A DNA stretch of 23,568 nt from a virus. Shown piece by piece: positions 2,211 through 16,626 of this stretch. Numbering within the stretch: the stretch's first letter is position 1; the number at the start of each line of letters is the position of its first letter. The DNA lies in IMG/VR virus record IMGVR_UViG_3300031696_000062, positions 1-23,568 of that record, one strand, 5' to 3'. The notes below the pieces were generated by a model. The model saw nothing but the letters and a program-made list of their open reading frames with translations, was not told the DNA's origin and ran no database searches. Position numbers and translations under genes: made by a program.

Positions 2211-2411
2211 AGAAGAAAAGAATATACTTTAAGAATAATCTATAAGAACATACTAAAGACACTTAAGACTCTTAAGTAGTTCAAAAGAACTAAATAGTAG
2301 TTGCTTTAGATGATAGCTTAAAGTATAATTAGTAAAGTGTTCAAAAGGCACTTAAGTAGTACAAAGACCTATTTGGGTCATAATAGATAATCTTAAAAGA
2401 GAGTAAAGCAT
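2202..2411 (+). promoter_or_regulatory. A+T-rich untranslated leader with repeats upstream of ssb
   Basis: About 210 bases without a gene. They hold AAGAACATACTAAAG (near 2244-2258), shared with the P2 leader, and several CTTAAG sites (2262-2267, 2271-2276, 2351-2356), two of them in the related strings CTTAAGTAGTTCAAA and CTTAAGTAGTACAAA. There is also a perfect stem-loop, TAGTTC-AAAA-GAACTA (2277-2292), and a weak GACC/GGTC hairpin near 2366-2380. A purine-rich ribosome binding site precedes the ssb ATG. This looks like a regulatory leader, operator array or replication-origin region. Low G+C next to SSB and primase would suit an origin, but that is inference. Confidence 0.7.
2277..2292 (+). 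repeat. Small perfect stem-loop in the P1 leader
   Basis: TAGTTC (2277-2282), loop AAAA, GAACTA (2287-2292). The stem is 6 bp with a purine tetraloop, about 75 bases into the predicted transcript. It has no U-tract, so it is not a terminator. It could be an RNA processing or protein-binding site. Confidence 0.5.
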
Positions 2412-2774
2412 ATGTCAGTATTAACAGGTTCAGTAGCATTCGCCAACTTAGACGCCCACGAAATGTATCAGGGTCAAAGCACTGGCAAGTATTCGGTCGT
2501 GCTTACATTAGACGAAAAGAACGCGGATATCTTAGAAAGCGCAGGTGTTAAGCTACGCAGCTATGAAGGCACCAAGCAACGAAAGTTTGCAAGCAAGTTT
2601 GAAGTGGATATTGTTGACTTAGACGGTGAACCATGCAAGGAACGTATCACACGAGGCTCATTGGTTCGTGTACAGTACACTTTAGGTCAAGAGCACCCAG
2701 TACATGGCATTACGCCTTACTTGGATAAGATCCGCGTCCTAGAGCTAGCCAGCGCCAGCGATGACGACTTCTAA
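2412..2774 (+). CDS. ssb: Single-stranded DNA-binding protein, T7 gp2.5-like
   Basis: A 120-residue protein with an OB-fold-like pattern of strands (SVLTGSVAFANLD, KYSVVLTLDEKN, LVRVQYTLGQE) and an acidic tail ending SDDDF. A terminal aromatic after an acidic tail is the signature by which T7 gp2.5 and cellular SSBs contact replication partners. It is about half the length of T7 gp2.5 (232 aa), so it carries only a compact OB core plus tail. It is the first gene after promoter P1 and precedes the primase-helicase, the usual context for an SSB in T7-type phages. It should coat exposed template strands and recruit polymerase and helicase during phage DNA synthesis in the cytoplasm. The assignment rests on tail, size and position. 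Confidence 0.82.
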   Translation: MSVLTGSVAFANLDAHEMYQGQSTGKYSVVLTLDEKNADILESAGVKLRSYEGTKQRKFASKFEVDIVDLDGEPCKERITRGSLVRVQYTLGQEHPVHGITPYLDKIRVLELASASDDDF

Positions 2775-2795
2775 TCTAAGGTGCCTTAAGTCAAA

Positions 2796-2827
2796 CCCTA
2801 GCCTTACTATTCCCCAGTAGGCTAGGG
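2796..2827 (+). promoter_or_regulatory. Hairpin between ssb and primase-helicase
   Basis: CCCTAGCC (2796-2803) pairs with GGCTAGGG (2820-2827). TACT (2805-2808) pairs with AGTA (2816-2819), leaving one bulged T and a 7-base loop. No T-run follows, so it is not a classic terminator. It may be an RNase III-type processing site, an mRNA end stabiliser or a partial attenuator. CTAAGGTGCCTTAAG lies just upstream (2776-2790). Confidence 0.65.
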
Positions 2828-2858
2828 CCCTCACACAAGCTTACAGGAGCTCTCAGGC

Positions 2859-4496
2859 ATGGCTAGTAAAGAGTACGAAGAAAATCATTTAGTCAGTAAG
2901 GGCCCTTGCAGTGAATGTGGGGCATGGAAGGCTAAAGCAACCTATTCCGATGGTCATAGTATTTGTTATGCTTGTGATCACTATACACATGGTAGTGGCT
3001 CAATAAGCGCACCTAATAAAACTAAAGTAAGGCCGTTAGAGATGACAGGAACAATATCAGCAATACAAGACCGTAGAATAAGCCTAGACGTAGCCAAGCG
3101 GTACAGGGTTACAGTAGAGCATAATCAAGACGGAAGTATCAGCAAGCACCACTACCCCTATTACAACCAAGATGGTAACCAAGTAATAGGCACTAAAGTG
3201 AGAGGCGTCAAAGATAAACAGTTCTATGCCACGGGTGATATGGCAGCGTCAGGTCTATTTGGCCAGCAGGCCTTTAGGGAGGGTGGTAAATACATAACCA
3301 TTACAGAGGGAGAGCTAGACGCCTTAGCAGTTAACGAAATGTTTGACGGTAAGTGGCCTGCGGTAAGTATCAAGGGCAGCTCTAGTGCGGTTAAAGATAT
3401 TAAGAATAGCTTGCAATGGCTGGAGACCTTCGAGCACGTTGTCATATGTTTTGATAATGATGAAGCAGGCAACAAGGCCTCACAAGCCGTTCTAAGCCTC
3501 TTTAGCCCACGTAAGGCTAAGGTATGCACCTTGACCATGAATGATGCTAGTGATATGCTTAAGGCTAACAAGATACGCGAGTTCACCAAATGCTGGTGGG
3601 ACGCTAAAGCTTTTAAGCCTGAGGGTGTAGTCAGCTTCGGTGACGAGGGTGTGTGGGACAAGTTTGTTAAGCGCGGTACAGAAGAGGTGATACCCTTCCC
3701 AAGCTGTTTTGATTCATTGAACAAGATGATGAATGGCGGCATAGCGGCTGGTGAACTAACTGTAATTGGTGCCTTGACAAGTATTGGTAAGTCTACTATG
3801 GTATCTAACCTAGTGACAGGATTCAGCGAAGAGAGCAACAAAACAACGGGTTGTATCTTCCTAGAGGCTGACATAGGCGAGACAGTAGAGAATCTAGTGG
3901 CGGTTAAGGCTGGTATCAACATCAGCAACATACCACACGAAATGAGAGACTACACTGGACTTAAGACGGTTTACCAAGGTATGGTAGACAAAGGCAACTT
4001 ACACCTACTTGATCATCAAGGGTCGTTAGACAGTGAAGAACTATTTGCTAAGATTCAGTATATGATTAAAGGGCTGGAGTGTGATATAATCATTATTGAC
4101 CCACTACAGGCTGGTGTGAAGAGTAACGAGAACAGCGCCATTGACGACTTCATGGATAGGTGCTTGAAGTTGATTAAGAATACAGGGGTGAGTATGATCC
4201 TAGTGTCTCATATGAAGAAACCACCTCACGGGCAGAGTGCTCATAACGTGGACGAATATGATCTTAAGGGCTCTAGCTCAATCAACCAGATTGCATTCAA
4301 TACTATCCTATTGAGTCGTGACAAAATGACGGACGATGAATATGCACGTAACTGTACTCAGGTGCAACTAGTTAAGTGTAGACGTACAGGACGTACAGGT
4401 GTAGCAGGGTGGTTGTTCTATGAGAATAACACATCACGTTTAGTAGCTACGCAGGCACCTGAAATTAAAGCAGCACACTCACATGAGGATTTCTAG
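2859..4496 (+). CDS. Bifunctional DNA primase-helicase, T7 gp4-like
   Basis: A 545-residue protein (T7 gp4 has 566). The N-terminal zinc ribbon uses C17, C20, C36 and C39, the same positions as in T7. The TOPRIM primase core has EGELDA and the acidic CFDNDEAG. The hexameric helicase domain has Walker A GALTSIGKS (304-312), Walker B CDIIIIDPLQAG, and the SHMKKPPHG and LKGSSSINQ motifs that follow it in the gp4/DnaB family. It makes RNA primers on the lagging strand and unwinds DNA 5' to 3' at the replication fork. AGGAG nine bases before the ATG supports the start. Met62 with its own AAGG could give a zinc-less helicase isoform like T7 gp4B (see findings). The next gene starts two bases after the stop. 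Confidence 0.96.
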   Translation: MASKEYEENHLVSKGPCSECGAWKAKATYSDGHSICYACDHYTHGSGSISAPNKTKVRPLEMTGTISAIQDRRISLDVAKRYRVTVEHNQDGSISKHHYPYYNQDGNQVIGTKVRGVKDKQFYATGDMAASGLFGQQAFREGGKYITITEGELDALAVNEMFDGKWPAVSIKGSSSAVKDIKNSLQWLETFEHVVICFDNDEAGNKASQAVLSLFSPRKAKVCTLTMNDASDMLKANKIREFTKCWWDAKAFKPEGVVSFGDEGVWDKFVKRGTEEVIPFPSCFDSLNKMMNGGIAAGELTVIGALTSIGKSTMVSNLVTGFSEESNKTTGCIFLEADIGETVENLVAVKAGINISNIPHEMRDYTGLKTVYQGMVDKGNLHLLDHQGSLDSEELFAKIQYMIKGLECDIIIIDPLQAGVKSNENSAIDDFMDRCLKLIKNTGVSMILVSHMKKPPHGQSAHNVDEYDLKGSSSINQIAFNTILLSRDKMTDDEYARNCTQVQLVKCRRTGRTGVAGWLFYENNTSRLVATQAPEIKAAHSHEDF

Positions 4497-4693: not shown

Positions 4694-4762
4694 ATGTTAT
4701 CAGAAAGCTTGCTAGTAGTTGGCTTAAGTGCTATACTAATTGGGTACTGTTGGAATGATTAG
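4694..4762 (+). CDS. Tiny membrane peptide (22 aa) upstream of the SleB-like lysin
   Basis: The ATG directly abuts the previous TAA. A strong AAGGAGA ribosome binding site lies about eight bases upstream, better than that of the following gene. The peptide is MLSES followed by a hydrophobic core, LLVVGLSAILIGY, and a short CWND tail, so it is one possible membrane helix. Its stop (TAG, 4760-4762) overlaps the ATG at 4755 of the cell wall hydrolase in the +1 relative frame, giving ATGATTAG. The clear evidence is ribosome binding site plus coupling. The function is unknown: a translational leader, a mini-holin or lysis regulator, or a membrane anchor joined to the lysin by frameshifting are options. 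Confidence 0.55.
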   Translation: MLSESLLVVGLSAILIGYCWND

Positions 4763-5168
4763 CGCAGCGGTGTTGTGTATGGCAATGAACATATATCATG
4801 AGGCGCGAGGAGAGCCTCTGGCAGGGCAGATAGGAGTAGCACATAGCGTACTTAATCGTGTGGCAGACCTTAGATACCCTTCTACAGTCTGTGGTGTAGT
4901 TAAGCAAGCTAAGTACCACGGGTGGGACATGGACACACCAATAAGAAACCAATGTCAATACAGTTGGTTCTGTGACGGTAAGTCAGATCACCCACAAGAT
5001 GGTAAGGCAATGTTGGAGGCCACCATACTAGCACAATACGTGTTACATGGTGACTCTATAGACATTATCGAAGGAGCTACACACTACCATGCTGACTATG
5101 TACATCCATACTGGGCTGATCATATGGAAATAACAGTTAAACTAGGTTCACATATATACTATAGGTAA
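4755..5168 (+). CDS. SleB/CwlJ-type cell wall hydrolase (probable endolysin)
   Basis: A 137-residue protein from the ATG at 4755. A TTG at 4740 is in frame but has no ribosome binding site, while 4755 overlaps the stop of the tiny ORF before it. It matches the Hydrolase_2 family: MNIYHEARGEP with the likely catalytic Glu at 16, GQIGVAHSVLNRV, YPSTVCGVV, QYSWFCDGKSD, and a C-terminal GATHYHADYVHPYWA. Family members are peptidoglycan hydrolases, first described in spore germination and common as phage lysins. The first residues (ISAAVLCMAMN) are mildly hydrophobic, but a cleavable signal is not clear. It lies between helicase and polymerase, far from the holin. A second lysin, GH24, is encoded at 8868. 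Confidence 0.9.
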   Translation: MISAAVLCMAMNIYHEARGEPLAGQIGVAHSVLNRVADLRYPSTVCGVVKQAKYHGWDMDTPIRNQCQYSWFCDGKSDHPQDGKAMLEATILAQYVLHGDSIDIIEGATHYHADYVHPYWADHMEITVKLGSHIYYR

Positions 5169-5171: not shown

Positions 5172-6914
5172 ATGGCTAGGTTGATATTTGATATAGAGAC
5201 TAATGGGCTTAACCCAAGTAAGGTGTGGGTCATTGTCACTAAAGATATTGACACTGGCGATATACGTACCTTTGCTTCACCTACAGGGCTCACTACAAAT
5301 GGGTGGGATGCTTTCAATGCTTACATAGCACAAGCAGATGAAGTAATAGGTCATAACATAATGGGGTATGACATCCCAGTGTGCGAAAGGCTACTAGGCA
5401 CTAACTTTAGTAAGTGTAAGATCACAGACACTTTAGTAATGTCACGGTTAGCTGATCCACAAAGGGCTGGTCATTCATTAGCATATTGGGGAGAAGAGCT
5501 TGGGTATCCAAAGGGTGATTACAATGATTGGACACGGTATACTGTGGAAATGGTGGAGTACTGTAAGCAAGACGTTAGGGTTAATGAACAGGTGTACGAA
5601 CGCTTGCTATGTGAGCTTGATACTTTTGGAAGTGAGAGCAGTATACTTGAGCACAATGTACAAAGTATCATACAAAAACAAATAAGAAACGGCTGGCTTT
5701 TGGATGTGCCGAAGGCTAGAGACTTAGTAGCAGAACTTAAAGAGAAATCTTATGACTTGGAAGAAGAAGTGCAGAGAGTATTCATACCGTTGCCTACGTA
5801 TGTTAAGGAAGTTACCCCTAAGATTAAAAAGGATGGTAGCACAAGCATCGTTGGGCTCAAGTTCCTTGGAGATAGGTGGGAAGAAGTAGGTGGCCCTTTT
5901 AGTCGTATTGATTGGCCTGTCTTTAATCTGGGATCTCGTCAGCAAATAGGGCGCTACTTAAAGCACTTTGGTTGGGTTCCTAAGGACTTTACTGAGACAG
6001 GACACGCTATAGTATCGGAGGACATCTTAAAGAATGTCAAAGGCATACCAGAGGCCGAGCTTATAGCTTCATATCTCCTCGTTGGTAAGCGTATAGCTCA
6101 GGTACGCAGTTGGCTGGAGTCGATGGACGAAAGCACAGAGCGTGTACATGGTTATGTTAACACTAATGGTGCTGTAACTGGACGTATGACACACAGTAAG
6201 CCTAATTTAGCTCAGGTGCCCAGCTCTAGTAGCTTATATGGGCCTGAATGCAGAGCTTGCTGGATAGTACCTAAGGGTTACAAACTTGTTGGCATAGACG
6301 CCTCAGGGCTCGAATTACGAATGTTAGCCCACTACATGAACGATTCTGACTATACTAATACTATATTGACAGGTGACATTCATACAGCTAATATGCTAGC
6401 GGCTGGATTAGCAAATCGTAATTTAGCGAAAACTTTCATATACGCTTATTTGTACGGCGCAGGTGACGAGAAGATAGGTAGCATAGCAGGCGGTGGGCGT
6501 AAGAAAGGAAAGCAACTTAAAGAAAGCTTCCTAAAGGCTACACCAGCACTTGCTGCACTTAAAGATAACGTAGCAGCCTCAGCAGGCAAGGGCTACATAA
6601 CCGCCTTAGATGGGCGTAAGGTATTCATAAGATCAGAACACGCCGCACTTAACTCACTTTTACAGTCGGCTGGTGCGTTAGTTATGAAACAAGCCTTGAT
6701 TATCTTGGACAAGTTTGCTAAACTGTACAGCATGGACTACAAGTTCGTGGGTAATGTACATGACGAGTTCCAAGTAGAAGTAAGAGAGGATCAAGCAGAA
6801 CGCTTCGGTGCTCTAGCAGCTAGCTGTATAGAAGCAGCAGGTATTCATTTTAAGCTCAGGTGTCCCTTAGCTGGTGAATACAACGTAGGCAACAACTGGG
6901 CAGAGACTCACTAA
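5172..6914 (+). CDS. Family A DNA polymerase, T7 gp5-like
   Basis: A 580-residue replicative polymerase. The 3'-5' exonuclease domain has Exo I FDIETNGL (D7, E9), Exo II GHNIMGYD and Exo III YCKQDVRVN. The polymerase domain has GYVNTNGAVTGRMTH and PNLAQVP, then motif A GIDASGLELRMLAH (D376), motif B RNLAKTFIYAYLYGAG (R416, K420, Y424) and motif C GNVHDEFQVE (D531), all close to T7. It is about 120 residues shorter than T7 gp5 (704). About 100 of these are missing before motif A, so the thioredoxin-binding insertion of T7 may be absent. Tyr at 424 (Pol I position 762) is the T7-type residue. It begins three bases after the lysin stop and copies the phage genome with SSB and helicase. Confidence 0.97.
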   Translation: MARLIFDIETNGLNPSKVWVIVTKDIDTGDIRTFASPTGLTTNGWDAFNAYIAQADEVIGHNIMGYDIPVCERLLGTNFSKCKITDTLVMSRLADPQRAGHSLAYWGEELGYPKGDYNDWTRYTVEMVEYCKQDVRVNEQVYERLLCELDTFGSESSILEHNVQSIIQKQIRNGWLLDVPKARDLVAELKEKSYDLEEEVQRVFIPLPTYVKEVTPKIKKDGSTSIVGLKFLGDRWEEVGGPFSRIDWPVFNLGSRQQIGRYLKHFGWVPKDFTETGHAIVSEDILKNVKGIPEAELIASYLLVGKRIAQVRSWLESMDESTERVHGYVNTNGAVTGRMTHSKPNLAQVPSSSSLYGPECRACWIVPKGYKLVGIDASGLELRMLAHYMNDSDYTNTILTGDIHTANMLAAGLANRNLAKTFIYAYLYGAGDEKIGSIAGGGRKKGKQLKESFLKATPALAALKDNVAASAGKGYITALDGRKVFIRSEHAALNSLLQSAGALVMKQALIILDKFAKLYSMDYKFVGNVHDEFQVEVREDQAERFGALAASCIEAAGIHFKLRCPLAGEYNVGNNWAETH

Positions 6915-6930
6915 CTAAAAGGATTGGCAT

Positions 6931-7305
6931 ATGTCAACTAAGAAGTGTAATAAGTGTTATATTGATAAGAGTACAGACGAGTTCTATGCACAGCCTGTCA
7001 ATAACGATAGTAAGTTCAACACCTGTAAGGGCTGTATGAAAGCTAAGCGATTAGCACGATGGTTTGAGGTCTTCAAGTACAAGGGTGCAGCTTGTACACA
7101 TTGCGGAATTAGCGATTATGGCCGACCAGCTATCTATGAGTACCATCATATTGACCCTAAGCTTAAGACAGGCAGCGTTAGTACTTTAATGTCCTCAGCG
7201 TCTGATGCTACCTTGTATGCTGAGGTAGACAAGTGTATACTAGTATGCGCTAACTGTCATAACGTAGAGCATTCACGTATGCGAGACCTGTTCGATGAAG
7301 CTTAA
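6931..7305 (+). CDS. HNH endonuclease with N-terminal zinc ribbon
   Basis: A 124-residue protein. The N-terminal part has two CxxC pairs (CNKC and CKGC), and the HNH domain has CTHCG, YEYHHIDP and CANCHNVEH, that is, a zinc-bound beta-beta-alpha-metal nuclease fold. An AAAGGA ribosome binding site precedes the ATG. It sits as a separate gene between polymerase and exonuclease, a location where T7-like phages often carry such genes (for example gp5.3). It could be a mobile homing endonuclease or a DNA-processing nuclease. Its 3' end overlaps the exonuclease start by 11 bases. Confidence 0.85.
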   Translation: MSTKKCNKCYIDKSTDEFYAQPVNNDSKFNTCKGCMKAKRLARWFEVFKYKGAACTHCGISDYGRPAIYEYHHIDPKLKTGSVSTLMSSASDATLYAEVDKCILVCANCHNVEHSRMRDLFDEA

Positions 7306-8059
7306 GCCTAGCGGAGGTAAGCCCTTCGCCCTTTGCTTTGTTGATGCAGACAGCTTGATATACCGTATAGCACTCAAGTCAGACTTAAGCTTGAAGAAAG
7401 CGAAGAGCTACTATGATAAAGCTATTGAGGATATTGAGTGGGCTACAGTGGCTACGGAGGTACGGGTAGCCCTTAAGGGTGACGGTAACTTTCGTTATGA
7501 GATAGCAGAGGACTATAAGGCCAAACGTAAGCCTGAGGAGGATGCTCCTGATCCTAACCCTGAGTTAACTAAGCGTAGACATGAGCTTAATGAGTATGCT
7601 TACAGCCTAGGGCACTTCAAGTCAGACAATTGTGAAGCTGATGATGTTGTGTCTATATGGGCACAGGAGGCCTTAGACGCTGGTGAGAACTTTGTTATCG
7701 CTCATATTGATAAAGATATTGACATGGTGGAAGGTTGGCACTATAATTTCACTAAGGAAATACTTTACTACATTGACGCGGAGGAAGGCTGGTATAAGAT
7801 GTGCATCCAAATGCTTATGGGTGACTCAACTGATAACATTCAGGGGCTCAAGGGCATTGGCCCAAAGAAAGCTGAGAAGTTGTTGACTGATGTAGCTGTA
7901 GGTGATATGATAGATGCAGTTCAAGAAGCGTGGAAAGACCATCACCCAGAAGATTGGGAAGAGAAGCTTGAAGTGTGTTGGAACTTGATCTACATGAGGC
8001 GCAACTGGGATGGCTTCAAGCAACTGACCATAGCGGAGGAGCTTAATGACAAAGTTTAG
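7295..8059 (+). CDS. 5'-3' exonuclease, T7 gp6-like (FEN family)
   Basis: A 254-residue protein. Metal-binding clusters match the 5' nuclease family: FVDADSLIY (D17, D19), EADDVV (114-119) and HIDKDIDM (D139, D141). GDSTDN (176-181) is followed by the helix-hairpin-helix-like LKGIGPKKAEKLL that grips duplex DNA. It should remove RNA primers, degrade host DNA for nucleotides and resect ends for recombination. The ATG lies inside the end of the HNH gene, and its own stop overlaps the endonuclease I start by 14 bases, so translation is coupled. A perfect promoter lies inside the coding region at 7719-7747. Confidence 0.93.
   Translation: MKLKPSGGKPFALCFVDADSLIYRIALKSDLSLKKAKSYYDKAIEDIEWATVATEVRVALKGDGNFRYEIAEDYKAKRKPEEDAPDPNPELTKRRHELNEYAYSLGHFKSDNCEADDVVSIWAQEALDAGENFVIAHIDKDIDMVEGWHYNFTKEILYYIDAEEGWYKMCIQMLMGDSTDNIQGLKGIGPKKAEKLLTDVAVGDMIDAVQEAWKDHHPEDWEEKLEVCWNLIYMRRNWDGFKQLTIAEELNDKV
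7719..7756 (+). promoter_or_regulatory. Probable internal sigma70 promoter P3
   Basis: TTGACA (7719-7724), a 17-base spacer and TATAAT (7742-7747), all perfect, inside the exonuclease gene. CTAAG (7752-7756) follows at the same offset from the -10 as in P1 and P2. It would read into endonuclease I, lysozyme and the nucleotide-metabolism genes. Confidence 0.6.
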
Positions 8060-8438
8060 ATCAGGTCTCGAAAGTTCATTCAGTGAGGCAGTAGGCACCG
8101 AGGACTTTGCTTACGAACCTTATCGTATACCCTACATCATTAGAAAGAAGTACATACCAGACTTCATCTGTGAACGTACAGGGGCTATGATAGAGTGTAA
8201 GGGGTTCTTTAGGGTCGGAGATACACAGAAGTACAAGGCGGTGCGTGATGAAATTGATCGACCCCTTATCTTCTTATTCACCGACTCACGTAAGCGTCTA
8301 CGTAAGGGCTCTAAGATGAACCTAGGGCAGTGGTGTGAGAAGGAAGGGATGGCACACTTTACTATGAAGTCAATACCTGAGCTGCTAGAGCACTTAGCTA
8401 CATTACCAGCCTTAGGGAAGGAGAGGGAGAATGAGTAG
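8046..8438 (+). CDS. Endonuclease I, T7 gp3-like Holliday junction resolvase
   Basis: A 130-residue protein (T7 gp3 has 149). It carries the family's FRSGLE at the N-terminus and the PD-(D/E)xK core YIPDF...IECKG. The likely catalytic residues are E9, D39, E50 and K52, matching T7 E20, D55, E65 and K67. RKGSKMNLGQWCEKEGM resembles the C-terminal T7 stretch. It cuts branched DNA and Holliday junctions, which is needed to resolve replication and recombination intermediates before packaging and helps break down host DNA. GGAGG precedes the ATG. It overlaps the exonuclease upstream and the next small gene downstream. Confidence 0.94.
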   Translation: MTKFRSGLESSFSEAVGTEDFAYEPYRIPYIIRKKYIPDFICERTGAMIECKGFFRVGDTQKYKAVRDEIDRPLIFLFTDSRKRLRKGSKMNLGQWCEKEGMAHFTMKSIPELLEHLATLPALGKERENE

Positions 8439-8595
8439 TACTTTTGAAGAGATCCGAGAGCAGATATTAAACAACTATGATGTTGACTTCTTATGTGAGC
8501 TCTTGGGGATTACGAGTGAATCCTTAGTAGATCGTTACGAGGACATGATCATGAAGAACCTAGGGCTATTTGAGGAGGACACGACTGATGCCTAA
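8431..8595 (+). CDS. Conserved small phage protein (54 aa)
   Basis: A 54-residue acidic, helical protein that overlaps endonuclease I by 8 bases, with a strong GGAGAGGGAG ribosome binding site. It reads FEEIREQILNNYDVDFLCEL, then LLGITSESLVDRYED. The pattern VDxLCELLxIxxExLxDRxED is familiar from many T7-like marine phages as a hypothetical protein. It could be a small DNA-binding or adaptor domain. No function is assigned. Its end overlaps the next ATG by 8 bases. Confidence 0.8.
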   Translation: MSSTFEEIREQILNNYDVDFLCELLGITSESLVDRYEDMIMKNLGLFEEDTTDA

Positions 8596-8866
8596 TGCGC
8601 TGGCTACACAGGTGGGTGGTGATCACTACACTAAGATGAAGCAACAGCCTCTTGAGAAGACTTACTTACAATATGGTTACGATGGTGTTAAACACTCTAT
8701 CTACACCAAGGTTGATAAGTATCTCACTAGGGACAAAGGGACGGACAGGGTGGACATAACGAAGGCTATACACTGCTTACAGTTGCAGTTAGAGTTCTTT
8801 GATAGGTCAAATGAGCTTGCTCTTCAACCTCGGCATACCAATGAAGCTATTGACGGGAACAGATAA
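8588..8866 (+). CDS. DUF3310 protein (nucleotide kinase-related)
   Basis: A 92-residue protein from the ATG at 8588, chosen over TTG 8570 because GAGGAGG lies nine bases upstream. VGGDHYTKMKQQPLEKTYL, then GVKHSIYTKVDKYLTRDKG and ITKAIHCLQLQLEF, fit DUF3310, a phage family often annotated as nucleotide kinase because it is related to T7 gp1.7. No P-loop is present. Location among replication and nucleotide genes agrees with a role in nucleotide metabolism. The catalytic assignment is by family only. The lysozyme ATG follows after one base. Confidence 0.8.
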   Translation: MPNALATQVGGDHYTKMKQQPLEKTYLQYGYDGVKHSIYTKVDKYLTRDKGTDRVDITKAIHCLQLQLEFFDRSNELALQPRHTNEAIDGNR

Positions 8867-8867
8867 T

Positions 8868-9305
8868 ATGAGTAGACTAACAAAGATGCTAATGCGTCAC
8901 GAGGGCACAGAGACCCATGCCTACCCTTGTAGTGAAGGGAAGCTAACCATAGGCGTAGGTCGTAATATCGACCCAGATGGAGGCTTAGGTATATCACCTT
9001 GGGAGATTGAGTTCTTACTACAGAATGATATCAACAGGGTCGAAGAGGAACTTTATGATCACTTTCCTGAATGGTTAGAGGATGAAGGGTTGGACTATGT
9101 ACGTTTAGATGCTATAATAGATATCTGCTTCAACTTAGGCTTAACTAGGTTCCTAGGCTTTGAGAAAGCTTTAGCAGCTATGCAAAATAGGGACTATGAC
9201 ACAGCAGCTTATGAATTTCTCAATAGCAGATGGGCAGATCAGGTAGGAAATAGGGCCATAGAACTGGCCGAAATGATACGAAGTGGAGAATACTCAAATG
9301 ATTAA
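8868..9305 (+). CDS. GH24 (T4-type) phage lysozyme with Cys in the catalytic Asp position
   Basis: A 145-residue muramidase cutting the glycan backbone of peptidoglycan. The N-terminus LMRHEGTETHAYPCSEGKLT aligns without gaps to the T4 lysozyme active site: E12 equals E11, C21 replaces D20 and T27 equals T26. TIGVGRNI follows as in the family. Later blocks FNLG, F..AL..M..RDYDTAA and NSRWADQVGNRA are typical. An E-8-C-5-T arrangement is known among GH24 phage lysins, so activity is expected. There is no signal peptide or membrane segment, so it depends on a holin. The ATG at 8868 follows the DUF3310 stop (an upstream in-frame TTG is ignored). Its end overlaps the glutaredoxin start. Confidence 0.93.
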   Translation: MSRLTKMLMRHEGTETHAYPCSEGKLTIGVGRNIDPDGGLGISPWEIEFLLQNDINRVEEELYDHFPEWLEDEGLDYVRLDAIIDICFNLGLTRFLGFEKALAAMQNRDYDTAAYEFLNSRWADQVGNRAIELAEMIRSGEYSND

Positions 9306-9552
9306 GTTGTACACAGGGCCTAACTGTAGTGCCTGTACGAAGCTCAAGGGACGTTTAGACGGCTTAGGCATACCAAAAGAGAGCTATGAGGAAGCCAATG
9401 TCAATGACGCTGCACACAGGGCCGCTGTAGTGGCCTTAGGGTTCAGGGGCATACCTTTGTTAGTTAAGTATGTAGAGGGCACAGAGGAGCTTGTAGGCAC
9501 CTTAATGGGTGCTTCGTATGGTGATGCTGAATATAAGGAGTTCTTTGCTTGA
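9298..9552 (+). CDS. Glutaredoxin/thioredoxin-like redox protein
   Basis: An 84-residue protein from the ATG at 9298, with GGAG upstream and an overlap with the lysozyme stop. It has the thioredoxin-fold active site CSAC near the N-terminus (LYTGPNCSACTKLKGRL) and the cis-proline motif GIPLLVK. Length and motifs suit a glutaredoxin or NrdH-type redoxin. Two kilobases downstream is a ribonucleotide reductase that needs dithiol reduction each cycle, so this is its likely electron donor, although the pairing is inferred. AAGGAG near the 3' end serves the next gene, whose TTG start overlaps this stop (TTGA). Confidence 0.9.
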   Translation: MIKLYTGPNCSACTKLKGRLDGLGIPKESYEEANVNDAAHRAAVVALGFRGIPLLVKYVEGTEELVGTLMGASYGDAEYKEFFA

Positions 9553-9728
9553 GCAACCTAAGTACTACAATAATTAGAGCAGACAATAAACTGCTTACAG
9601 TTCCCGCAGTCCTACAAGCCGCTATCCTTGGAGTCTTAGTACTCTATGGGGTAGCGTTCTTGAGTATGGACTCGGTACACAATGCAGCACATGACACTAG
9701 ACATTCATTTGCCTTCCCGTGTCACTAA
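9549..9728 (+). CDS. cbtB: CbtB-like cobalt transporter subunit (59 aa)
   Basis: A 59-residue protein starting at TTG 9549. This start is supported by a perfect AAGGAG eight bases upstream and by TTGA overlap with the glutaredoxin stop. One membrane helix (about residues 19-38, AVLQAAILGVLVLYGVAF) is followed by the diagnostic metal-site tail HNAAHDTRHSFAFPCH (H44, H48, D49, H52, C58, H59). This arrangement, a short N-terminus, one span and the HN-H-D-RH-FPCH tail, is that of the CbtB family, a predicted subunit of a cobalt importer that works with CbtA and is usually linked to B12 control. No cbtA is in the window. It is cotranscribed with thyX and a B12-dependent RNR. The family call is strong; the transport role in the phage is inferred. 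Confidence 0.9.
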   Translation: MSNLSTTIIRADNKLLTVPAVLQAAILGVLVLYGVAFLSMDSVHNAAHDTRHSFAFPCH

Positions 9729-9745
9729 CCTAGAGAGAGAGTATA

Positions 9746-9946
9746 ATGTTTAAAGCACAAGCAAAGTCAGTGAAGACAATCACCCACACGTTACGGGTGA
9801 CCCTCAACCAACTAAAGACTCATAAGACAGAGCAAACGGCTATTGCTAACGCGGCAAGCAAACGAATGCAGGGGGCCTTAGACGAGGTAGGGCAGGCAGA
9901 CACTATTGTAACTAACTTAGAAAACCTATTAGGAGATGTAAAGTAA
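9746..9946 (+). CDS. Hypothetical small helical protein (66 aa)
   Basis: A 66-residue basic, helical protein with a coiled-coil-like pattern (LRVTLNQLKTHKTEQTAIANA). It has no Cys and no membrane span. The ribosome binding site is the purine run AGAGAGAG before the ATG. Its TAA overlaps the ATG of the next gene (TAATG), so the two are coupled and may act together. No family is recognised. Confidence 0.7.
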   Translation: MFKAQAKSVKTITHTLRVTLNQLKTHKTEQTAIANAASKRMQGALDEVGQADTIVTNLENLLGDVK

Positions 9947-10116
9947 TGACAACATTTGGATATTTAGTAGGTATAAGCGCTGTAGTATGGGCATTCGCAG
10001 CTTGGGTAACCCATGTGATTGTGTGTTTCACAGCAGGCTCATGGGGCTTCTTGATTGCTGGTGCGTTAGTAGCGCCCGTTGCTGTAGCACACGGCACTTG
10101 GGTGTGGTTTCAATAG
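9946..10116 (+). CDS. Small two-span membrane protein (56 aa)
   Basis: A 56-residue hydrophobic protein. Span one is about residues 4-28 (GYLVGISAVVWAFAAWV) and span two about residues 32-52 (SWGFLIAGALVAPVAVAHG). His23, Cys27 and His49 lie near the predicted membrane edges. The pattern AWxxHVxxC...WxxLxxGAxxxPxxxxHG is familiar in small phage membrane proteins of unknown role. A second holin or a partner of the CbtB-like protein is conceivable but unproven. It starts within TAATG of the previous gene. Confidence 0.75.
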   Translation: MTTFGYLVGISAVVWAFAAWVTHVIVCFTAGSWGFLIAGALVAPVAVAHGTWVWFQ

Positions 10117-10135
10117 AATAGAGAGAGTAAAGGAT

Positions 10136-10237
10136 ATGATGATCATTAAGCATATTGAGAGTATCATGGAAGGTTTTGACTGTGACATTAACACAGCAAT
10201 GCAGTTGTATAAGCGTGGGACAGTCTGGGAGGACTAA
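10136..10237 (+). CDS. Very small hypothetical protein (33 aa) before thyX
   Basis: A 33-residue ORF with two candidate ATGs (10136 and 10139) and purine-rich AGAGAG and AAAGGA signals upstream. It reads IIKHIESIMEGFDCDINTAM and ends LYKRGTVWED. GGAGG inside its last codons is the ribosome binding site of thyX, whose ATG begins one base after its stop, so it is probably translated and coupled to thyX. No function is assigned. Confidence 0.55.
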   Translation: MMIIKHIESIMEGFDCDINTAMQLYKRGTVWED

Positions 10238-10238
10238 G

Positions 10239-10937
10239 ATGCAAGCAGAATACATAAGCCACATGGGTAATGATCTAACAGTAGTTAACGCTGCTAGGGT
10301 ATCCTTTGATAAAGCTTCTGAGCTTGTGGACGCTTATAGAGCTAAGTCAGAGAGCGGTGTAGGTAGTCCAGTGGCAGTAGGGCAGACTGTGTCTAATGCA
10401 GACACTAAGCTAATCAAGTATCTAGCTACTCACGGCCACTGGACTCCGTTCAGTCACCCTCAGATAACCATGCGCTACACAGTGCCTATCTTCATCGCTC
10501 GTCAAGAGTTCAAGCACATCGTAGGCTTCACTCGTAATGAGGTTAGTCGTAGGTATGTTGACGATACCCCTGAGTTCTATGTGCCAGAGGTATGGCGTAG
10601 TAGGCCAGAGGGAAGCGTTAAGCAGGGCAGTGGTGTCCCCTGTGACAACCAAAGCTCGGCAGCTTTTTATGCAAGAGAGGCTACAAAAACAGCTTTACTA
10701 GCTTATAAGTATCTCCTTGAGGATGACAATGTAGCACCAGAGCAAGCACGTATGGTCTTACCACAGTCCATGTACACCAGCTACTACATCACTGGCTCAC
10801 TAGCAGCCTTTGCTCGTATGGTTAAGCAGCGCAGTGACCCTCATGCTCAAGTAGAGATACAAGAGTTAGCCTCTATGGTTGACAAGATAGTGCGACCACT
10901 GTATCCTATATCATGGGAGGCATTAGTAGATGGCTGA
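10239..10937 (+). CDS. thyX: Flavin-dependent thymidylate synthase ThyX
   Basis: A 232-residue enzyme that makes dTMP from dUMP with FAD and methylene-tetrahydrofolate. The ATG at 10239 has GGAGG upstream; the longer frame to 10155 lacks support. Family features are AARVSF near residue 20, a HGHWTPFSHPQITMRYTVPI block and IARQ followed by the signature region KHIVGFTRNEVSRRY (92-106). The signature differs from the textbook RHR-x2-S-x-NE-x-S-x-RY: the second Arg is lost and one residue is inserted, while NE-x-S-x-RY is intact. The C-terminus has QARMVLPQSMYTSYYITGSL, as in ThyX. It works with the RNR downstream to supply DNA precursors. Its end overlaps the next gene by 8 bases. Confidence 0.95.
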   Translation: MQAEYISHMGNDLTVVNAARVSFDKASELVDAYRAKSESGVGSPVAVGQTVSNADTKLIKYLATHGHWTPFSHPQITMRYTVPIFIARQEFKHIVGFTRNEVSRRYVDDTPEFYVPEVWRSRPEGSVKQGSGVPCDNQSSAAFYAREATKTALLAYKYLLEDDNVAPEQARMVLPQSMYTSYYITGSLAAFARMVKQRSDPHAQVEIQELASMVDKIVRPLYPISWEALVDG

Positions 10938-11229
10938 TAAAGAAGTACAAGAGATGATTGAGTGGGAACAGAAGCTGGTCTTAATCTTTGGATACTCGTA
11001 TAACATTGATGAACACCCTACGGTGACTGATGAAATATATGATTATGGTATCAAGAGGCTTCTTATGCTTAAGCGTAGGCACCCACAGGATTGGTGTGAG
11101 AGCACAGTGTGTCCTGAGGTGTTCTTAGACCCTGAGGAAGCGTGGTCATATACTTCAAGTCACTTTCCTGCCAACGCTGAGATAGCTAAATGGGTAGACG
11201 AGAGAAAGCTAGAGCGCAGTAAAATGTAG
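10930..11229 (+). CDS. Orphan protein resembling NAD+ DNA ligase domain Ia
   Basis: A 99-residue protein overlapping the thyX stop. Residues 21-53 read like LigA domain Ia: GYSYNIDEHPTVTDEIYDYG, then LLMLKRRHP, against the family pattern (L)YY/H...D.P...D..YD.L...L..LE..HP. The residues that hold the NMN half of NAD+ in LigA align as Y24, N25 (usually His), D34, Y37 and D38. No adenylation domain (KxDG), OB, HhH or BRCT domain follows, so it is not a ligase by itself. Possible roles are NAD or NMN binding, or help to a host ligase. The resemblance is by eye. Confidence 0.7.
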   Translation: MADKEVQEMIEWEQKLVLIFGYSYNIDEHPTVTDEIYDYGIKRLLMLKRRHPQDWCESTVCPEVFLDPEEAWSYTSSHFPANAEIAKWVDERKLERSKM

Positions 11230-11286
11230 TAAAGTAACACTAATATGCGCTATAAAGTGCAACATAATACTAAAGAGAAGAAAACA

Positions 11287-11526
11287 ATGATGGAACTTAA
11301 GCTTAAAGATGTACAGATGGAAGAGATTACAGTAGCCTACTTAGGCCGAGTGCATAATGATCTTAAGAATGAGTTATACGCTAATGAGATTGAGTGTTTT
11401 ACTTTAGACTATGCTGATGTGTGCGAGGTACTTAGATCAGTGGTTGCCATTGAAACAATACTTAAGGATCTAATGTACGCAGAAGATTACTTTGTATGGA
11501 AACTAGAGAACGGAGTGGAGCTATAA
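11287..11526 (+). CDS. Hypothetical acidic helical protein (79 aa)
   Basis: A 79-residue acidic protein. Translation could start at 11245, 11287 or 11290. 11287 is preferred because AGAGAAG lies just upstream, while 11245 has no clear ribosome binding site. It reads LKDVQMEEITVAYLGRVHND, later DVCEVLRSVVAIETILKDL, so it is probably all helical. TAATG overlap couples it to the RNR, suggesting a linked function, but no family is recognised. Confidence 0.65.
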   Translation: MMELKLKDVQMEEITVAYLGRVHNDLKNELYANEIECFTLDYADVCEVLRSVVAIETILKDLMYAEDYFVWKLENGVEL

Positions 11527-13259
11527 TGAACGCATTAGTAGAAGGGCCTAAGACTAAGATCAGTCAAGAAGTACACGCAACTAAGTATCGTATGGAAGGT
11601 GAGTCATTCAAGGAAGCACAGAATCGCTTTGCTAGTACCTTAGCTGATGATGAAGAGCACTTCCGTAAGCTACGTGATATCTTGCTAGAGCAACGCTTCA
11701 TGGGCGGTGGACGTACACAGTTAGCCATTGGGTCGCCTACAGCTACCACAGCATTCAACTGTTTCGTTAGCTCACCCATCGAAGATAACTTTGATTCAAT
11801 CATGGATATTGCTAAGGAAGCTGGTAAGACTATGCGTAAGGGCGGTGGCATCGGCTACGACTTCTCTCGCTTGCGTCCTAAGGGCTCCTTGATTGTCAGC
11901 TTAGGTAGTCAAGCCTCAGGGCCTATTAGCTTCATGCGTATCTATGACAGCCTATGTAAGACAGTAAGCTCAGCAGGACACCGTAGAGGGGCACAGATGG
12001 GCGTCCTACGTGTAGACCATCCAGACATTGAAGAGTTCATCCATGCTAAGCAGAACAGCACTGAGCTTACGGCATTCAATATCTCCATCGGTGTTACTGA
12101 CGAGTTCATGGAGTGTGTACGTGACAAGAAGATGTTTGACTTGACCTTTGAAGGTAAGGTGTACAAGCAAGTCTTTGCTCCAGCCCTGTGGGAAATGGTC
12201 ATGCGAAGCACATGGGATTGGGCAGAACCAGGAATCTTGTTTATTGATCGTATCAACCAGATGAATAACCTGTGGTACTGTGAGACCATTGAAGCTACTA
12301 ACCCTTGTGGTGAACAGCCTCTACCGTCTAATGGTGCTTGTTTGCTTGGTAGCTACAACTTAGTGAAGTATGTGGACTTTGATGATGAAGGTACACGGAG
12401 CTTTAACTTTGCTCAGCTAATGCAGGACATACCTATCGTTACTCGTGCAATGGACAACATTCATGATAACACTGTCTTCCCTTTGCCAGCACAAGCAGAC
12501 GAGAGTGTAGCTAAGCGCCGTATGGGTCTAGGTGTTACTGGTCTAGCCAATGCACTTGAGGCACTAGGGTTTGCTTATGGCTCACCTAAGTTCCTAGAAG
12601 TAGCAGAAGACATCTTTAAGGTTATTCGTGACGAGACATATCGTGCCTCGGTAGGGCTAGCTAAAGAGAAGGGAGCTTTCCCGTTGTTTGATGCAGAGAA
12701 GTACTTACAGGGTGAGTTCATTAAGACCTTACCAGAAACCGTTAAAGCAGGAATTAAGAAGTATGGGATACGTAATAGCCATCTGCTTAGCTTTGCTCCT
12801 ACGGGCACTATCAGCCTCACCGCAGACAATGTTAGCGGCGGTATTGAGCCTGTATTTAGCTATGGCTACGATAGAACTATCCAGACAGAGGATGGCCCAA
12901 TCATTGAAGAGGTACTGGACTACGCTTACCGAACGTGGGGAGTGAAAGGAAAGAAGGCCAACGATTGTACTGCTGATGAACACTTGAGTGTCTTAGCGTT
13001 AAGCTCTAAGTATGTGGATAGTGCAGTGAGCAAGACAATCAACTGTTCACCTGATATGCCTTGGGAAGACTTTAAGAGTATCTATATCAAAGCATGGGAA
13101 CAAGGTTGCAAAGGTTGCACCACGTTCAACTCAGGCGGTAAGCGATATGGTATCTTGAATGACAAGGCCATTGAAGACCTAGAAGAGCAGATTGAGCAAG
13201 AGCCTACAGTAGAAGCTTGCTTTATCAACTGGGAGACAGGACAGAAGGAATGTAGCTAA
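11526..13259 (+). CDS. nrdJ: Adenosylcobalamin-dependent (class II) ribonucleotide reductase
   Basis: A 577-residue enzyme reducing ribonucleotides to deoxyribonucleotides with a radical generated from adenosylcobalamin. The ATG at 11526 overlaps the previous stop and has GGAG upstream; an in-frame ATG at 11496 is less likely. Core motifs are NCFVSSP with C79, KGGGIGYDFSRLRP, SSAGHRRGAQMGVL, the catalytic NPCGEQ (N259, C261 thiyl site, E263) with C272 as probable partner of C79, and FAPTGTISL. No N-terminal ATP-cone is present. The C-terminal region has GCKGCTTFN, and a last Cys lies two residues from the end (ECS), a possible swinging redox arm. No NrdB-type partner is near, as expected for class II. 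It is the last gene before the terminator. Confidence 0.93.
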   Translation: MNALVEGPKTKISQEVHATKYRMEGESFKEAQNRFASTLADDEEHFRKLRDILLEQRFMGGGRTQLAIGSPTATTAFNCFVSSPIEDNFDSIMDIAKEAGKTMRKGGGIGYDFSRLRPKGSLIVSLGSQASGPISFMRIYDSLCKTVSSAGHRRGAQMGVLRVDHPDIEEFIHAKQNSTELTAFNISIGVTDEFMECVRDKKMFDLTFEGKVYKQVFAPALWEMVMRSTWDWAEPGILFIDRINQMNNLWYCETIEATNPCGEQPLPSNGACLLGSYNLVKYVDFDDEGTRSFNFAQLMQDIPIVTRAMDNIHDNTVFPLPAQADESVAKRRMGLGVTGLANALEALGFAYGSPKFLEVAEDIFKVIRDETYRASVGLAKEKGAFPLFDAEKYLQGEFIKTLPETVKAGIKKYGIRNSHLLSFAPTGTISLTADNVSGGIEPVFSYGYDRTIQTEDGPIIEEVLDYAYRTWGVKGKKANDCTADEHLSVLALSSKYVDSAVSKTINCSPDMPWEDFKSIYIKAWEQGCKGCTTFNSGGKRYGILNDKAIEDLEEQIEQEPTVEACFINWETGQKECS

Positions 13260-13268
13260 GCAGTAACG

Positions 13269-13309
13269 AAAAAGCCCCTAGGTATCTTAATGACGCCTAG
13301 GGGCTTTTT
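13269..13309. terminator. Bidirectional rho-independent terminator between the two arms
   Basis: AAAAAGCCCCTAGG (13269-13282) and CCTAGGGGCTTTTT (13296-13309) are perfect 14-base inverted repeats around a 13-base loop. The T-run on each strand lets the same hairpin stop transcription from nrdJ on + and from the virion genes on -. It lies 9 bases after the nrdJ stop and 12 bases from the end of the convergent gene. Confidence 0.95.
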
Positions 13310-13321
13310 GTTGCCTATGGT

Positions 13322-15100
13322 TTACATGGCTGGTACTTCCTCTTCCGAGGTGTCAGCAGGCGTATTCAAGTAATGAATTAAGACCGCCCTGTCTGCTTTG
13401 TAAAGGTTAAGCTTGATGGGATCAGTAGTCTTCGCCATGACCTTACTAAGCGCCGTAAGAGAAGCGCCTGCGTAGCTCCGTATAGCTGGTGACCTCAGAG
13501 TATTGATAGCTAAAGCACCACTACCTGCAACCGCAAGAGAGGTAGCTACCATAGGCATCCAAGGTTGAGCAGCTAGACCACCCAGTAAGAGCACGTTACC
13601 TGCGATACTTGCAGGGGTCTTAGGGATTGTTATGCCTGTCTTGTCCCTTACTATATTCTGTACCTTACCAAAGACACCTAACAGCTCAGTAGCCGCCCTA
13701 GGCTCCATTACGTTAAGGTTCTGATACAGCCTGCTCTGGCGTGTCAACAAGCCTTGAGAAGCCCTATCAGGTATCATAGCCGCGACTTCCTTATTCAAGA
13801 CACCTCTGGCTAGCTTAACAATCTGGGAACGGGAGTTAACTAGACCACCCTCTATATCAGCAGGTTTCCACTCCTTAATGAACGTGTCAAAGTCTTTACG
13901 AACCTGTAGTAGTCCAGCGGTAGTACCGTCAGAGCGTTGGATAAGATCTTTAAGATGCGACATAAGGGGAGTCACTTGACTTTGTGCACCATTAATAGCC
14001 TGCCAGCCATTAGATAATACTAAGCCTTCCACATCGGAATCTAGCTTATCCATCACAAACTTCCTAATGATCTTAGGGTTGCCAGCCGCGTAGATGTTCT
14101 CAATGACCCTATCGTTCAACGTGTTGATCTGCTCGTAAACCTTATCTACGTTGTAACCTACAGGTGATAAAGGATCTAGTTGAGGAACTTTCTTAAGCTC
14201 TAGTAGACGTTCAGCCTCTATCTTAGTAGGAGTCCATGTAATTACACCACTCTTGGACGTAGTACTTGTGCCCCTATCACTCTTGTACATATCCTTACGG
14301 TCAGGCATCATCATCTTAAAGATACCCTCGTCCCTCTTGCTTCTCTTGCCTTGAGCACCAAAGATTGACAACTCCTTGCCTCTCAGTGCAACAGCGGTAG
14401 ATGGGGGCTTCTTACCTTTAAACGCAGCTATGTTAGCGATGGACGATAGTTGACGAGCATTACGTGGGTTTAGATCTAGAAACTCTTTAGCATCTTCCCA
14501 GCCACCTTCTAGTGCTGCTGTGAAACCCTTCCAAGCTTCTGATTGTCCTATGTCAAACACCACTCCTTTGACAGCCTCAACTGTGGGCTTTTCTATAGCG
14601 TCTGGGGTCACGTTACCGATAACCTCTAGAGCAGCATTACCATACTCCATCAAGGCACCACCAGCAGCAGGAGCAACCGCTTCGCCTGCCATAAACAATG
14701 CAGCCTCTTCAGGAGACCGTGGTGCTGTAGTACCATCATCAGTCATGTACTGGTTCATAGCAGAAGCAGCCATGAGCGGTATACGATCCTGTGTTGGTAC
14801 TGACTGACGCTCAGCCTCTATGCTTGCTATCTTGTTACCCATCTGATCAACAGCGCCCTGTACACCTTCATACAGACCATCTCTAATGTCGTCCATAGGT
14901 GTCATACTAGGCGTGTGCTCTACAAAGGCGGCACGATCCTCAGCGACCTGAGCCTCTTCAGCAGCCGCTTGTTTCATTTCAGCGTGTTGCTTCAAGGCTA
15001 TTTTGGATATTGCAGCCACTAGAGCTTCATTACCAGCCGCGTGGGCCTTAGCTGCCATTTCCTTAAGTTCGGCTATCGTCTTACTATATTGTTTAGCCAT
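13322..15100 (-). CDS. Probable internal virion / ejection protein (592 aa)
   Basis: A 592-residue protein. The N-terminus (about 1-65) is a charged Ala/Glu/Lys coiled coil (IAELKEMAAKAHAAGNEALV). The middle is mixed helical. Residues about 499-533 are Gly/Ala-rich and hydrophobic (SIAGNVLLLGGLAAQPWMPM, then VATSLAVAGSGALAI) and could insert in a membrane. The C-terminus is polar. No lytic transglycosylase or other enzyme motif is visible. It is the last of three large genes after promoter P2, and downstream of the tail genes this position suits T7-like core proteins ejected into the host. Its ATG overlaps the previous stop (TAATG). The role comes from context and composition. Confidence 0.72.
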   Translation of the reverse strand: MAKQYSKTIAELKEMAAKAHAAGNEALVAAISKIALKQHAEMKQAAAEEAQVAEDRAAFVEHTPSMTPMDDIRDGLYEGVQGAVDQMGNKIASIEAERQSVPTQDRIPLMAASAMNQYMTDDGTTAPRSPEEAALFMAGEAVAPAAGGALMEYGNAALEVIGNVTPDAIEKPTVEAVKGVVFDIGQSEAWKGFTAALEGGWEDAKEFLDLNPRNARQLSSIANIAAFKGKKPPSTAVALRGKELSIFGAQGKRSKRDEGIFKMMMPDRKDMYKSDRGTSTTSKSGVITWTPTKIEAERLLELKKVPQLDPLSPVGYNVDKVYEQINTLNDRVIENIYAAGNPKIIRKFVMDKLDSDVEGLVLSNGWQAINGAQSQVTPLMSHLKDLIQRSDGTTAGLLQVRKDFDTFIKEWKPADIEGGLVNSRSQIVKLARGVLNKEVAAMIPDRASQGLLTRQSRLYQNLNVMEPRAATELLGVFGKVQNIVRDKTGITIPKTPASIAGNVLLLGGLAAQPWMPMVATSLAVAGSGALAINTLRSPAIRSYAGASLTALSKVMAKTTDPIKLNLYKADRAVLIHYLNTPADTSEEEVPAM

Positions 15101-16614
15101 TAGTTGATATCCTCAAGGGCGTTAACCATGTTATATAGTTCTGTAGCTGTTTCCTTGCCTGTCAGAACCTGATCAGAGCCTACTACTTTGTTACCTTCAC
15201 TCTTAGCTTCTTCCATCTCGGCTGCTGTAGGTAACACAAGTAAGTTATTCTCTTCCCACTCTTTAACGTACTCCTTCATCTCATAGCGTTTCAGGAGCTT
15301 GTTGTCCTTACGTGCTGCGGCATACTTAGTGTTGATGAAGTCGCTACGTGCTTGCTCCCAACGCTCGGCCTTAACGGCTGTTTCAAGCAGAAGTCTGTTA
15401 CCTGCGACAGTTTTGTCTAGGCCGATACTTGCCTTAGCAAATGCTACCATCTCTTGCTGACTGATAGCACCTTTAGTCTCAGCTACACGATCCAACACGG
15501 AGTCCATGATGTTCGCTCTAAACTGCTCTACGTTACCAGCGTCAATCACAAGATCCTTTCCTGCAAGACCTGAGGCAATTGCCAGCTTACGTACAGCTTG
15601 GAAAGTACCTGCACCTACACCAGTGTACATACCAGCATCTAACATTGCTAGAGACTGTTGATAACTAGCTATGATCTTACCCGACTTGTCTGTAGCGTCA
15701 TTGGCAGTGGTTAAGTAGTTAGAGATATTCAAAGCATCTTGCGCTGCTGTCTTAGTTATGTTAGGATCCATCTCCATACTTAAGGCAGACTTTAGGTTGT
15801 TTATCCGTTTAGCTCCTTCCTCTGCTGTGATACCACCGCTCTCAGGAGGTAGCGCCATTAACGCTGTGATCTTCTGATTACGTTCTGTAAAGGTAGCCAG
15901 CTTCTTCTGAGAAACAGTTGCGCCACTATCCTCACCAATATAGATAGCATCGTTTGGCATAGGTAGAGGCTTACCATCAGGGCCGTAAACAAACCGCGCT
16001 GACCCTTGTACGTAACCAGCAACTAGCTTATTATCAGCAAGCCTGTAAGTACCTTGCTTTACTATCTTATCAGCATTCTCAGGAGAGGCTATCTTAAGTG
16101 CTAGCTTGATAGCGTCAGGGTTACCACGCTCTACCTGTTCAGCCAGTACAGCATTCTTCTCACGAATACCATCAGCAAGCTCTAGGTTAGCCTCAGTGTC
16201 CAAGCTAGCCTGTAGTGCTGTTTCTCGCTCCAGTTTCTCCTTAGCTTCAAGGGCTATGGCACTCTTCTTTACCTCCGCAGCCTTCTGGAAGTAACCAGCG
16301 GCATTGAGGTTAATGGCTAGCTCGTTCTGCTGAGCTGCTGTGCCTGAGGACATTGAACCATACTGCTTTTGCATGGCTACTTGCTCGTCTTCCGCAGCCT
16401 GTAGTTTCTCCATGCGTTCATCAGTGCCTTCTACTTTACCAGCTAAGGCACGACCGAACAAAGAACCTACCATACTGATTGCTTGTGCTTTAGCAGGGTC
16501 ACGAGCCCCCTGAGAGGCTTGTTGCATTAGTTGCTGTTGTAAGTCAGATGACCGCTTGTTTCGTTGATCCAGTAGATCTTGAACACCTGTATTACTTGTG
16601 AATAAACCGCCCAT
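15100..16614 (-). CDS. Probable internal virion / structural protein (504 aa)
   Basis: A 504-residue, Ala/Gln/Glu-rich, mainly helical protein. The N-terminus has LLDQRNKRSSDLQQQLMQQA, and a long charged coiled-coil stretch lies at about 100-165 (AAEVKKSAIALEAKEKLERE). The later part has AETKGAISQQEMVAFAKASI followed by KTVAGNRLLLETAVKAERWE, a pattern often seen in structural proteins of marine podophages. No enzyme motif or membrane span is seen. It is cotranscribed between the repeat-rich protein and the 592-aa protein, with a stop-start overlap to the latter. An ejection or core protein is the best guess. Confidence 0.7.
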   Translation of the reverse strand: MGGLFTSNTGVQDLLDQRNKRSSDLQQQLMQQASQGARDPAKAQAISMVGSLFGRALAGKVEGTDERMEKLQAAEDEQVAMQKQYGSMSSGTAAQQNELAINLNAAGYFQKAAEVKKSAIALEAKEKLERETALQASLDTEANLELADGIREKNAVLAEQVERGNPDAIKLALKIASPENADKIVKQGTYRLADNKLVAGYVQGSARFVYGPDGKPLPMPNDAIYIGEDSGATVSQKKLATFTERNQKITALMALPPESGGITAEEGAKRINNLKSALSMEMDPNITKTAAQDALNISNYLTTANDATDKSGKIIASYQQSLAMLDAGMYTGVGAGTFQAVRKLAIASGLAGKDLVIDAGNVEQFRANIMDSVLDRVAETKGAISQQEMVAFAKASIGLDKTVAGNRLLLETAVKAERWEQARSDFINTKYAAARKDNKLLKRYEMKEYVKEWEENNLLVLPTAAEMEEAKSEGNKVVGSDQVLTGKETATELYNMVNALEDIN

Positions 16615-16626
16615 ATTGTAAACCTC

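Follow-up and report, generated by a model that had tools for sequence, protein, structure and literature searches.

The DNA analysed here (the window) is the entire 23,568-bp record of a marine bacterial virus. Its early genes, taken from left to right, comprise a primase-helicase, PolA, nucleases, a lysozyme, a glutaredoxin, CbtB, two small ORFs, ThyX, two further small ORFs and NrdJ, and the structural genes run in the opposite direction. The nearest relatives of the window PolA belong to the marine phages HTVC104P and HTVC103P, with the CRP roseophages lower in the list, and megablast comparison of the whole window against phages gave no match. Cell-wall-degrading genes are located in the early replication arm (Hydrolase_2, 4740-5168; phage lysozyme, 8838-9305), far from a gene for a 3-TM holin at 22769-23179. 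The features around cbtB are as follows.

9298..9552, + strand: glutaredoxin-like protein (PF00462 26.3 bits, cut-off 22.9; PHROG thioredoxin domain)
9535..9540, + strand: Shine-Dalgarno AAGGAG, 8 nt 5' of the cbtB TTG, read from the sequence
9549..9728, + strand: cbtB, 59-aa CbtB-family protein (TTG 9549-9551, stop 9726-9728), laid out as an N-terminal leader, one transmembrane helix at about residues 18-39, and a C-terminal His/Cys putative metal-binding tail, HNAAHDTRHSFAFPCH
9746..9946, + strand: small ORF between cbtB and thyX (weak PHROG_2380 match)
9946..10116, + strand: small hydrophobic protein of phage family phrog_7319 (51.4 bits)
10239..10937, + strand: thyX, FAD-dependent thymidylate synthase (PF02511 140.8 bits; TIGR02170 113.5 bits, cut-off 87.9)
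11496..13259, + strand: nrdJ, assigned by TIGR02504 as an adenosylcobalamin-dependent class II ribonucleotide reductase

The nrdJ start may be at 11496 or at a later in-frame ATG. The gene is 1.8 kb downstream of cbtB and transcribed in the same direction, and this B12-dependent reductase is the key context that the original prediction overlooked. The glutaredoxin-like protein is likely the electron donor of the reductase.

The TTG-started ORF of 59 codons at 9549-9728 proved to have exactly the coordinates, start and length claimed for it, and the further claim that it is a real gene, coupled to that of the glutaredoxin, is borne out by several observations. AAGGAG is situated 8 nt before the TTG, and the cbtB start overlaps the glutaredoxin stop in the sequence TTGA (9549-9552). 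AAGGAG or AGGAG is retained upstream of cbtB in most close relatives, and the homologous start codon is swapped among relatives, being TTG in some, GTG in L004, and ATG in L006 and L007. Relative to the window copy there are 8 synonymous and 1 non-synonymous changes in L023, 5 and 3 in L005, 14 and 4 in L024, and 18 and 14 in the distant L026; dN/dS in these comparisons is 0.04-0.18, well under 1, indicating purifying selection. The strand opposite cbtB is interrupted by stop codons. These data confirm the ORF as a genuine gene.

The identification of the product as CbtB was likewise upheld by its profile match, with PF09489 scoring 67.7 bits (E = 9.9e-19), far above the gathering cut-off of 27 bits. 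TIGR02459 gives 63.7 bits (E = 1.7e-17, positions 7-60 of 60), 0.7 bits below the curated cut-off of 64.4, and the phage relative L032 reaches 67.7 bits, above that cut-off; on these profile scores we file the window protein as a PF09489 family member rather than as a certified TIGR02459 equivalog. A single transmembrane helix and the C-terminal H...HD.RH...FPCH motif are both present. The one predicted membrane helix corresponds to the only hydrophobic stretch in the protein, with a best 19-residue Kyte-Doolittle mean of 2.35 at residues 20-38, and the predicted hallmark tail is found at the C-terminus, which ends HNAAHDTRHSFAFPCH.

Relatives of CbtB are present in 20 other IMG/VR records, making 21 viral records with the window. 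The pattern HxxxHDxRHxxxFPCH is unchanged in all 13 distinct phage CbtB sequences found, including aligned sequences only 35-39% identical to the window protein, and no loss of the HN-H-D-RH-FPCH residues was seen in related phages. The invariant part of phage CbtB is this His/Cys tail and not the membrane helix, which is of similar length across all phage copies. Family phrog_27887 was discarded as a phage CbtB family at an insignificant 12.2 bits, and degenerate pattern matches in L142-L144 were dismissed as chance matches, not CbtB, when the loci collected by then were screened with the CbtB model.

Bacterial CbtB proteins (PF09489/TIGR02459) resemble the phage protein in length, in having one helix and in their C-terminal HNAAHDTRHSFAFPCH tail, and those of marine Oceanospirillaceae show up to 78% identity to it across the last 36 residues. 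In a CbtB tree that has few columns and is weakly resolved, the window copy falls among the CbtB proteins of marine gammaproteobacteria; on this tree, the most likely donor of the window cbtB is a marine relative of the Oceanospirillaceae within the gammaproteobacteria. Unlike bacterial CbtAB, phage cbtB has neither a CbtA partner gene nor a cobalamin riboswitch, and is located in a nucleotide-metabolism cluster.

The position of cbtB differs among relatives. It follows the glutaredoxin gene in the window, L023 and L005, follows thyX in L027, L028 and L030, precedes thyX in L024, and is 1 kb after thyX in L032; L032, G017 and G020 are the cases where it lies further away. In L026 (IMGVR_UViG_3300031175_000184) the CbtB ORF, at 374-614, is fused in frame behind a duplicated copy of the first 15 codons of thyX, and the intact thyX starts at 614, after the fused ORF, which suggests insertion of cbtB at the thyX start. 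L023 and L005 have the window backbone and the same CbtB, with RTPR in place of NrdJ. CbtB thus stays with the nucleotide module as its place and the type of reductase vary among relatives, its association with class II reductases persists across these moves, and phage CbtB is most likely kept as an accessory of nucleotide synthesis.

Assignment of the window reductase to class II is based on profile and structural matches. NrdJ scores 513.6 bits with TIGR02504, above the cut-off of 399.95, and 245 bits with the class I model TIGR02506, below its cut-off of 341. The best solved relative is the B12-dependent NrdJ of Thermotoga maritima (1xje), and in the aligned C-terminal stretch the window enzyme has KGCTTF where that of T. 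maritima has RGITVY. The tyrosine pair that we take to be typical of class I, as in E. coli NrdA, was not seen in this stretch. Because some cyanophage reductases have been misfiled as class II, a search for small subunits was also run; no class I small subunit (PF00268) was found in the window, a 23.6 kb fragment, or in 11 relatives, although divergent small subunits can escape such searches (PMC6370689). By these sequence comparisons the window reductase is of class II and thus predicted to depend on adenosylcobalamin.

A class II reductase, either NrdJ or RTPR, is present in 15 of the 21 CbtB-bearing viral records, window included. Five have a dimeric-type NrdJ (G000, G002, G003, G014 and G020) and ten have RTPR or an RTPR fragment (G004, G005, G006, G008, G010, G011, G012, G013, G016 and G017), G005 and G010, where the matches are short, being classed from shared N-terminal sequence. 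RTPRs of three CbtB records tested whole score 263-285 bits with TIGR02505, under its cut-off of 340. One member of the RTPR-type group is a phage of 112.8 kb whose CbtB is divergent. Five of the reductase-less records (G001, G007, G009, G015 and G018) are related to reductase-bearing ones and are short or truncated. In the sixth, G019, a 49 kb fragment, no reductase was found; its polymerase matches phrog_262, T4-like by our own reading, and its CbtB is near a pair of radical-SAM genes, of which one gives a B12-binding match below threshold. In the T4-like fragment L145 (IMGVR_UViG_3300025636_000716, 160-3988) CbtB has two radical-SAM genes close by, one of them with a weak B12-binding match, as well as a tRNA and an Asp/Arg hydroxylase-like gene.

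In a control set of 50 viral contigs picked via a random 15-mer, four have an RTPR match and none has NrdJ above the cut-off. Fisher tests give p ~1.5e-7 by record (15/21 versus 4/50) and p 0.007 for contigs of at least 20 kb (5/7 versus 3/23), both indicative as the records are related; counting by backbone, a grouping of our own, gives 8/9 and an indicative p ~1e-4. Within the PolA-related lineage the link between CbtB and class II is weak, because class II is already common there (27 of 38 loci holding any reductase). CbtB was found in 3/80 PolA-anchored loci and in 0/80 NrdJ-anchored loci; it is therefore optional, and most class II phages do not have it.

In cellular CbtB loci CbtA is found within 500 bp in 73 of 80, and cobalamin riboswitches in 17 of the 20 scanned, whereas the CbtA model PF09490 matched nothing in the CbtB-bearing viral records searched, the window included, and no cobalamin riboswitch was detected at the Rfam gathering threshold in the window or in 14 CbtB-phage loci. 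The two-helix phrog_7319 protein at 9946-10116 was ruled out as a CbtA substitute, as it is missing from several CbtB-bearing contigs and is no constant companion of cbtB. Solo CbtB is also seen in cells, in seven Nitrospinota-type MAG loci (L175-L179, L184 and L185) with no recognisable CbtA within ~3 kb.

The sole CbtB match among 50,697 catalogued phage records is Pseudomonas phage Y13 (OQ572414, flagged UNVERIFIED), which we rejected as a CbtB phage since the neighbouring genes read as a P. aeruginosa cobalamin locus, leaving no true CbtB phage in that collection. Positions 6344-22460 of OQ572414.1 (L019) hold CobN-, CobW-, CbtB- and CbtA-like genes, CbtA being confirmed by profile and CobN and CobW being our own reading of the ORFs, and are probably host DNA contamination or a misassembly.

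The original prediction had a phage protein importing a trace metal. CbtB in a phage stands, while import by CbtB alone is not supported, as CbtB is a single-helix accessory subunit, here without CbtA. Phage cobalt import is plausible as part of a larger picture, cobalt transport by CbtAB itself still being mainly a genomic prediction (PMC4771312).

The reading that we prefer, at a probability of roughly 0.55, is that phage CbtB joins the CbtA of the host and, free of B12 repression, raises cobalt for the phage's own class II reductase. The 59-residue protein would span the inner membrane in an N-in, C-out orientation, its His/Cys-rich tail facing the periplasm, a topology predicted from how the charges are distributed, with R10 and K14 on the N side. 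The periplasmic tail would bind Co(II) and pass it to the host CbtA channel; since no CbtB-bearing viral record has a CbtA, the mechanism requires that of the host. Host cbtB and cbtA, usually behind a cobalamin riboswitch, are expected to be off when B12 is plentiful, and phage cbtB has no riboswitch, so that cobalt uptake would be sustained during infection. The extra cobalt would support the supply of adenosylcobalamin for the class II reductase, NrdJ in the window and RTPR in relatives, and this enzyme, together with glutaredoxin and ThyX, would provide deoxynucleotides for phage replication. The data above show the family and coding status of cbtB, its conservation, its lack of CbtA and a riboswitch, and its recurrent company of B12-dependent reductases; we infer the topology, the cobalt binding, the partnership with host CbtA and the benefit to the reductase. 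We hold it an even chance that, more broadly, several B12-dependent phage lineages have acquired a lone riboswitch-free CbtB that overrides host repression of cobalt uptake and is coupled to a class II reductase.

Cobalt enters the aerobic pathway at a late step, and extra cobalt could therefore act within one infection, although conversion of cobalt to B12 may still be too slow for this, which counts against the preferred reading. So does SAR11, the host of the nearest PolA relatives, where CorA is the only potential cobalt transporter (PMC4771312). The weak class II link within the PolA-related lineage, the lack of CbtB in most class II phages and the reductase-less fragment G019 weigh on the same side. 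B12 synthesis is essentially universal among organisms with CbtAB and the remaining predicted Cbt types (PMC2667541). The best functional evidence that we found comes from Methylococcus, where knock-down of cbtB improves growth in cobalt-containing medium, at 1 uM Co, as does lowering cobalt (PMC13108547), which is consistent with CbtB promoting cobalt entry; in Methylobacterium, overexpression of CbtAB gave no gain in growth rate under plasmid-induced cobalt limitation (PMC2773004).

Phage CbtB might instead act solo, as a periplasm-facing metal-binding or storage peptide that, without transport, would trap Co(II) or a different soft metal at the membrane or shield the infected cell. The absence of CbtA from every CbtB phage, the seven Nitrospinota-type loci with CbtB and no CbtA within ~3 kb, and a tail rather than a helix that is invariant all speak for such a role. 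We nonetheless think it unlikely, given the pairing of CbtB with CbtA in 73/80 cellular loci, the similar helix length in all phage copies, and the little metal that one small peptide could hold.

More doubtful is a dominant-negative or regulatory role, in which phage CbtB would bind host CbtA and lower or redirect metal import, limiting cobalt toxicity. A complex can be poisoned by an excess of one lone subunit, cobalt itself is toxic, and the Methylococcus knock-down aided growth at 1 uM Co (PMC13108547); the tail motif of phage CbtB is however fully intact and not degenerate, and the class II reductase needs cobalt, so that a reduced supply would harm the phage. We also disfavour, as quite improbable, the idea that cbtB is a host gene recently carried along without serving the phage: the gene is indeed rare (3/80 PolA-anchored relatives) and variable in position, but it is under purifying selection, is present in several phage backbones and co-occurs repeatedly with class II reductases. 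A lysis-related small membrane protein (holin, pinholin or antiholin), suggested by the single helix and by a lysozyme gene that ends at 9305, one gene upstream of cbtB, is disfavoured as very improbable given the strong CbtB profile match with its invariant tail, the distance of CbtB from any lysozyme in L024, L026, L030 and L032, and the separate 3-TM holin of the window.

The early module of the window resembles that of the cobaviruses (Lentibacter phages ICBM1/2 and relatives), where a glutaredoxin, ThyX and a cobalamin-dependent ribonucleotide reductase accompany the DNA polymerase, primase-helicase and nuclease; neither 'cobalt' nor 'CbtB' occurs as a word in that report (PMC6775973). 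A phage boost of B12 for ribonucleotide reduction has been proposed for the cobS-like genes of T4-like cyanophages, which would encode a cobalt chelatase subunit and according to a review are not actually homologous to bacterial cobS (PMC5083919). CbtB, in contrast, is a membrane cobalt-uptake subunit by family and passes its own Pfam family test. CorA of a Paracoccus prophage (PMC6536676) is a virus-linked metal transport gene of a different family, with no link to a B12-dependent reductase, and for the 'cobalt transporter' of a putative algal-virus contig (PMC11633385) the family is unspecified, no such link is made, and no hallmark gene is listed. In the literature searched, where subscription papers are thinly covered, we found no previous account of CbtB in a phage.

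In the ocean, where both B12 and cobalt are in short supply, phages with B12-dependent reductases are widespread, and a phage CbtB that accompanies class II reductases of two kinds offers a concrete candidate that can be tested. The sharing of one gene cluster by cbtB and a B12-dependent reductase suggests that the virus aids cobalt uptake by its host and so feeds its own DNA synthesis. If the preferred reading is correct, viral replication would be tied to marine trace-metal cycling through a minimal auxiliary gene, one subunit with neither channel nor riboswitch.

Variation was also seen in the reductases themselves. Compared with the window, L243, L244, L248 and L249 share its backbone (PolA identity 81-87%), while NrdJ, RTPR and a class I-like enzyme replace one another as the reductase. 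In L238 (IMGVR_UViG_3300003177_000010), at ~78.7-81.7 kb, an RTPR-type reductase is split by an intein-like insert of ~360 aa (LNPC|VSGDTW ... IAHN|CAEI).
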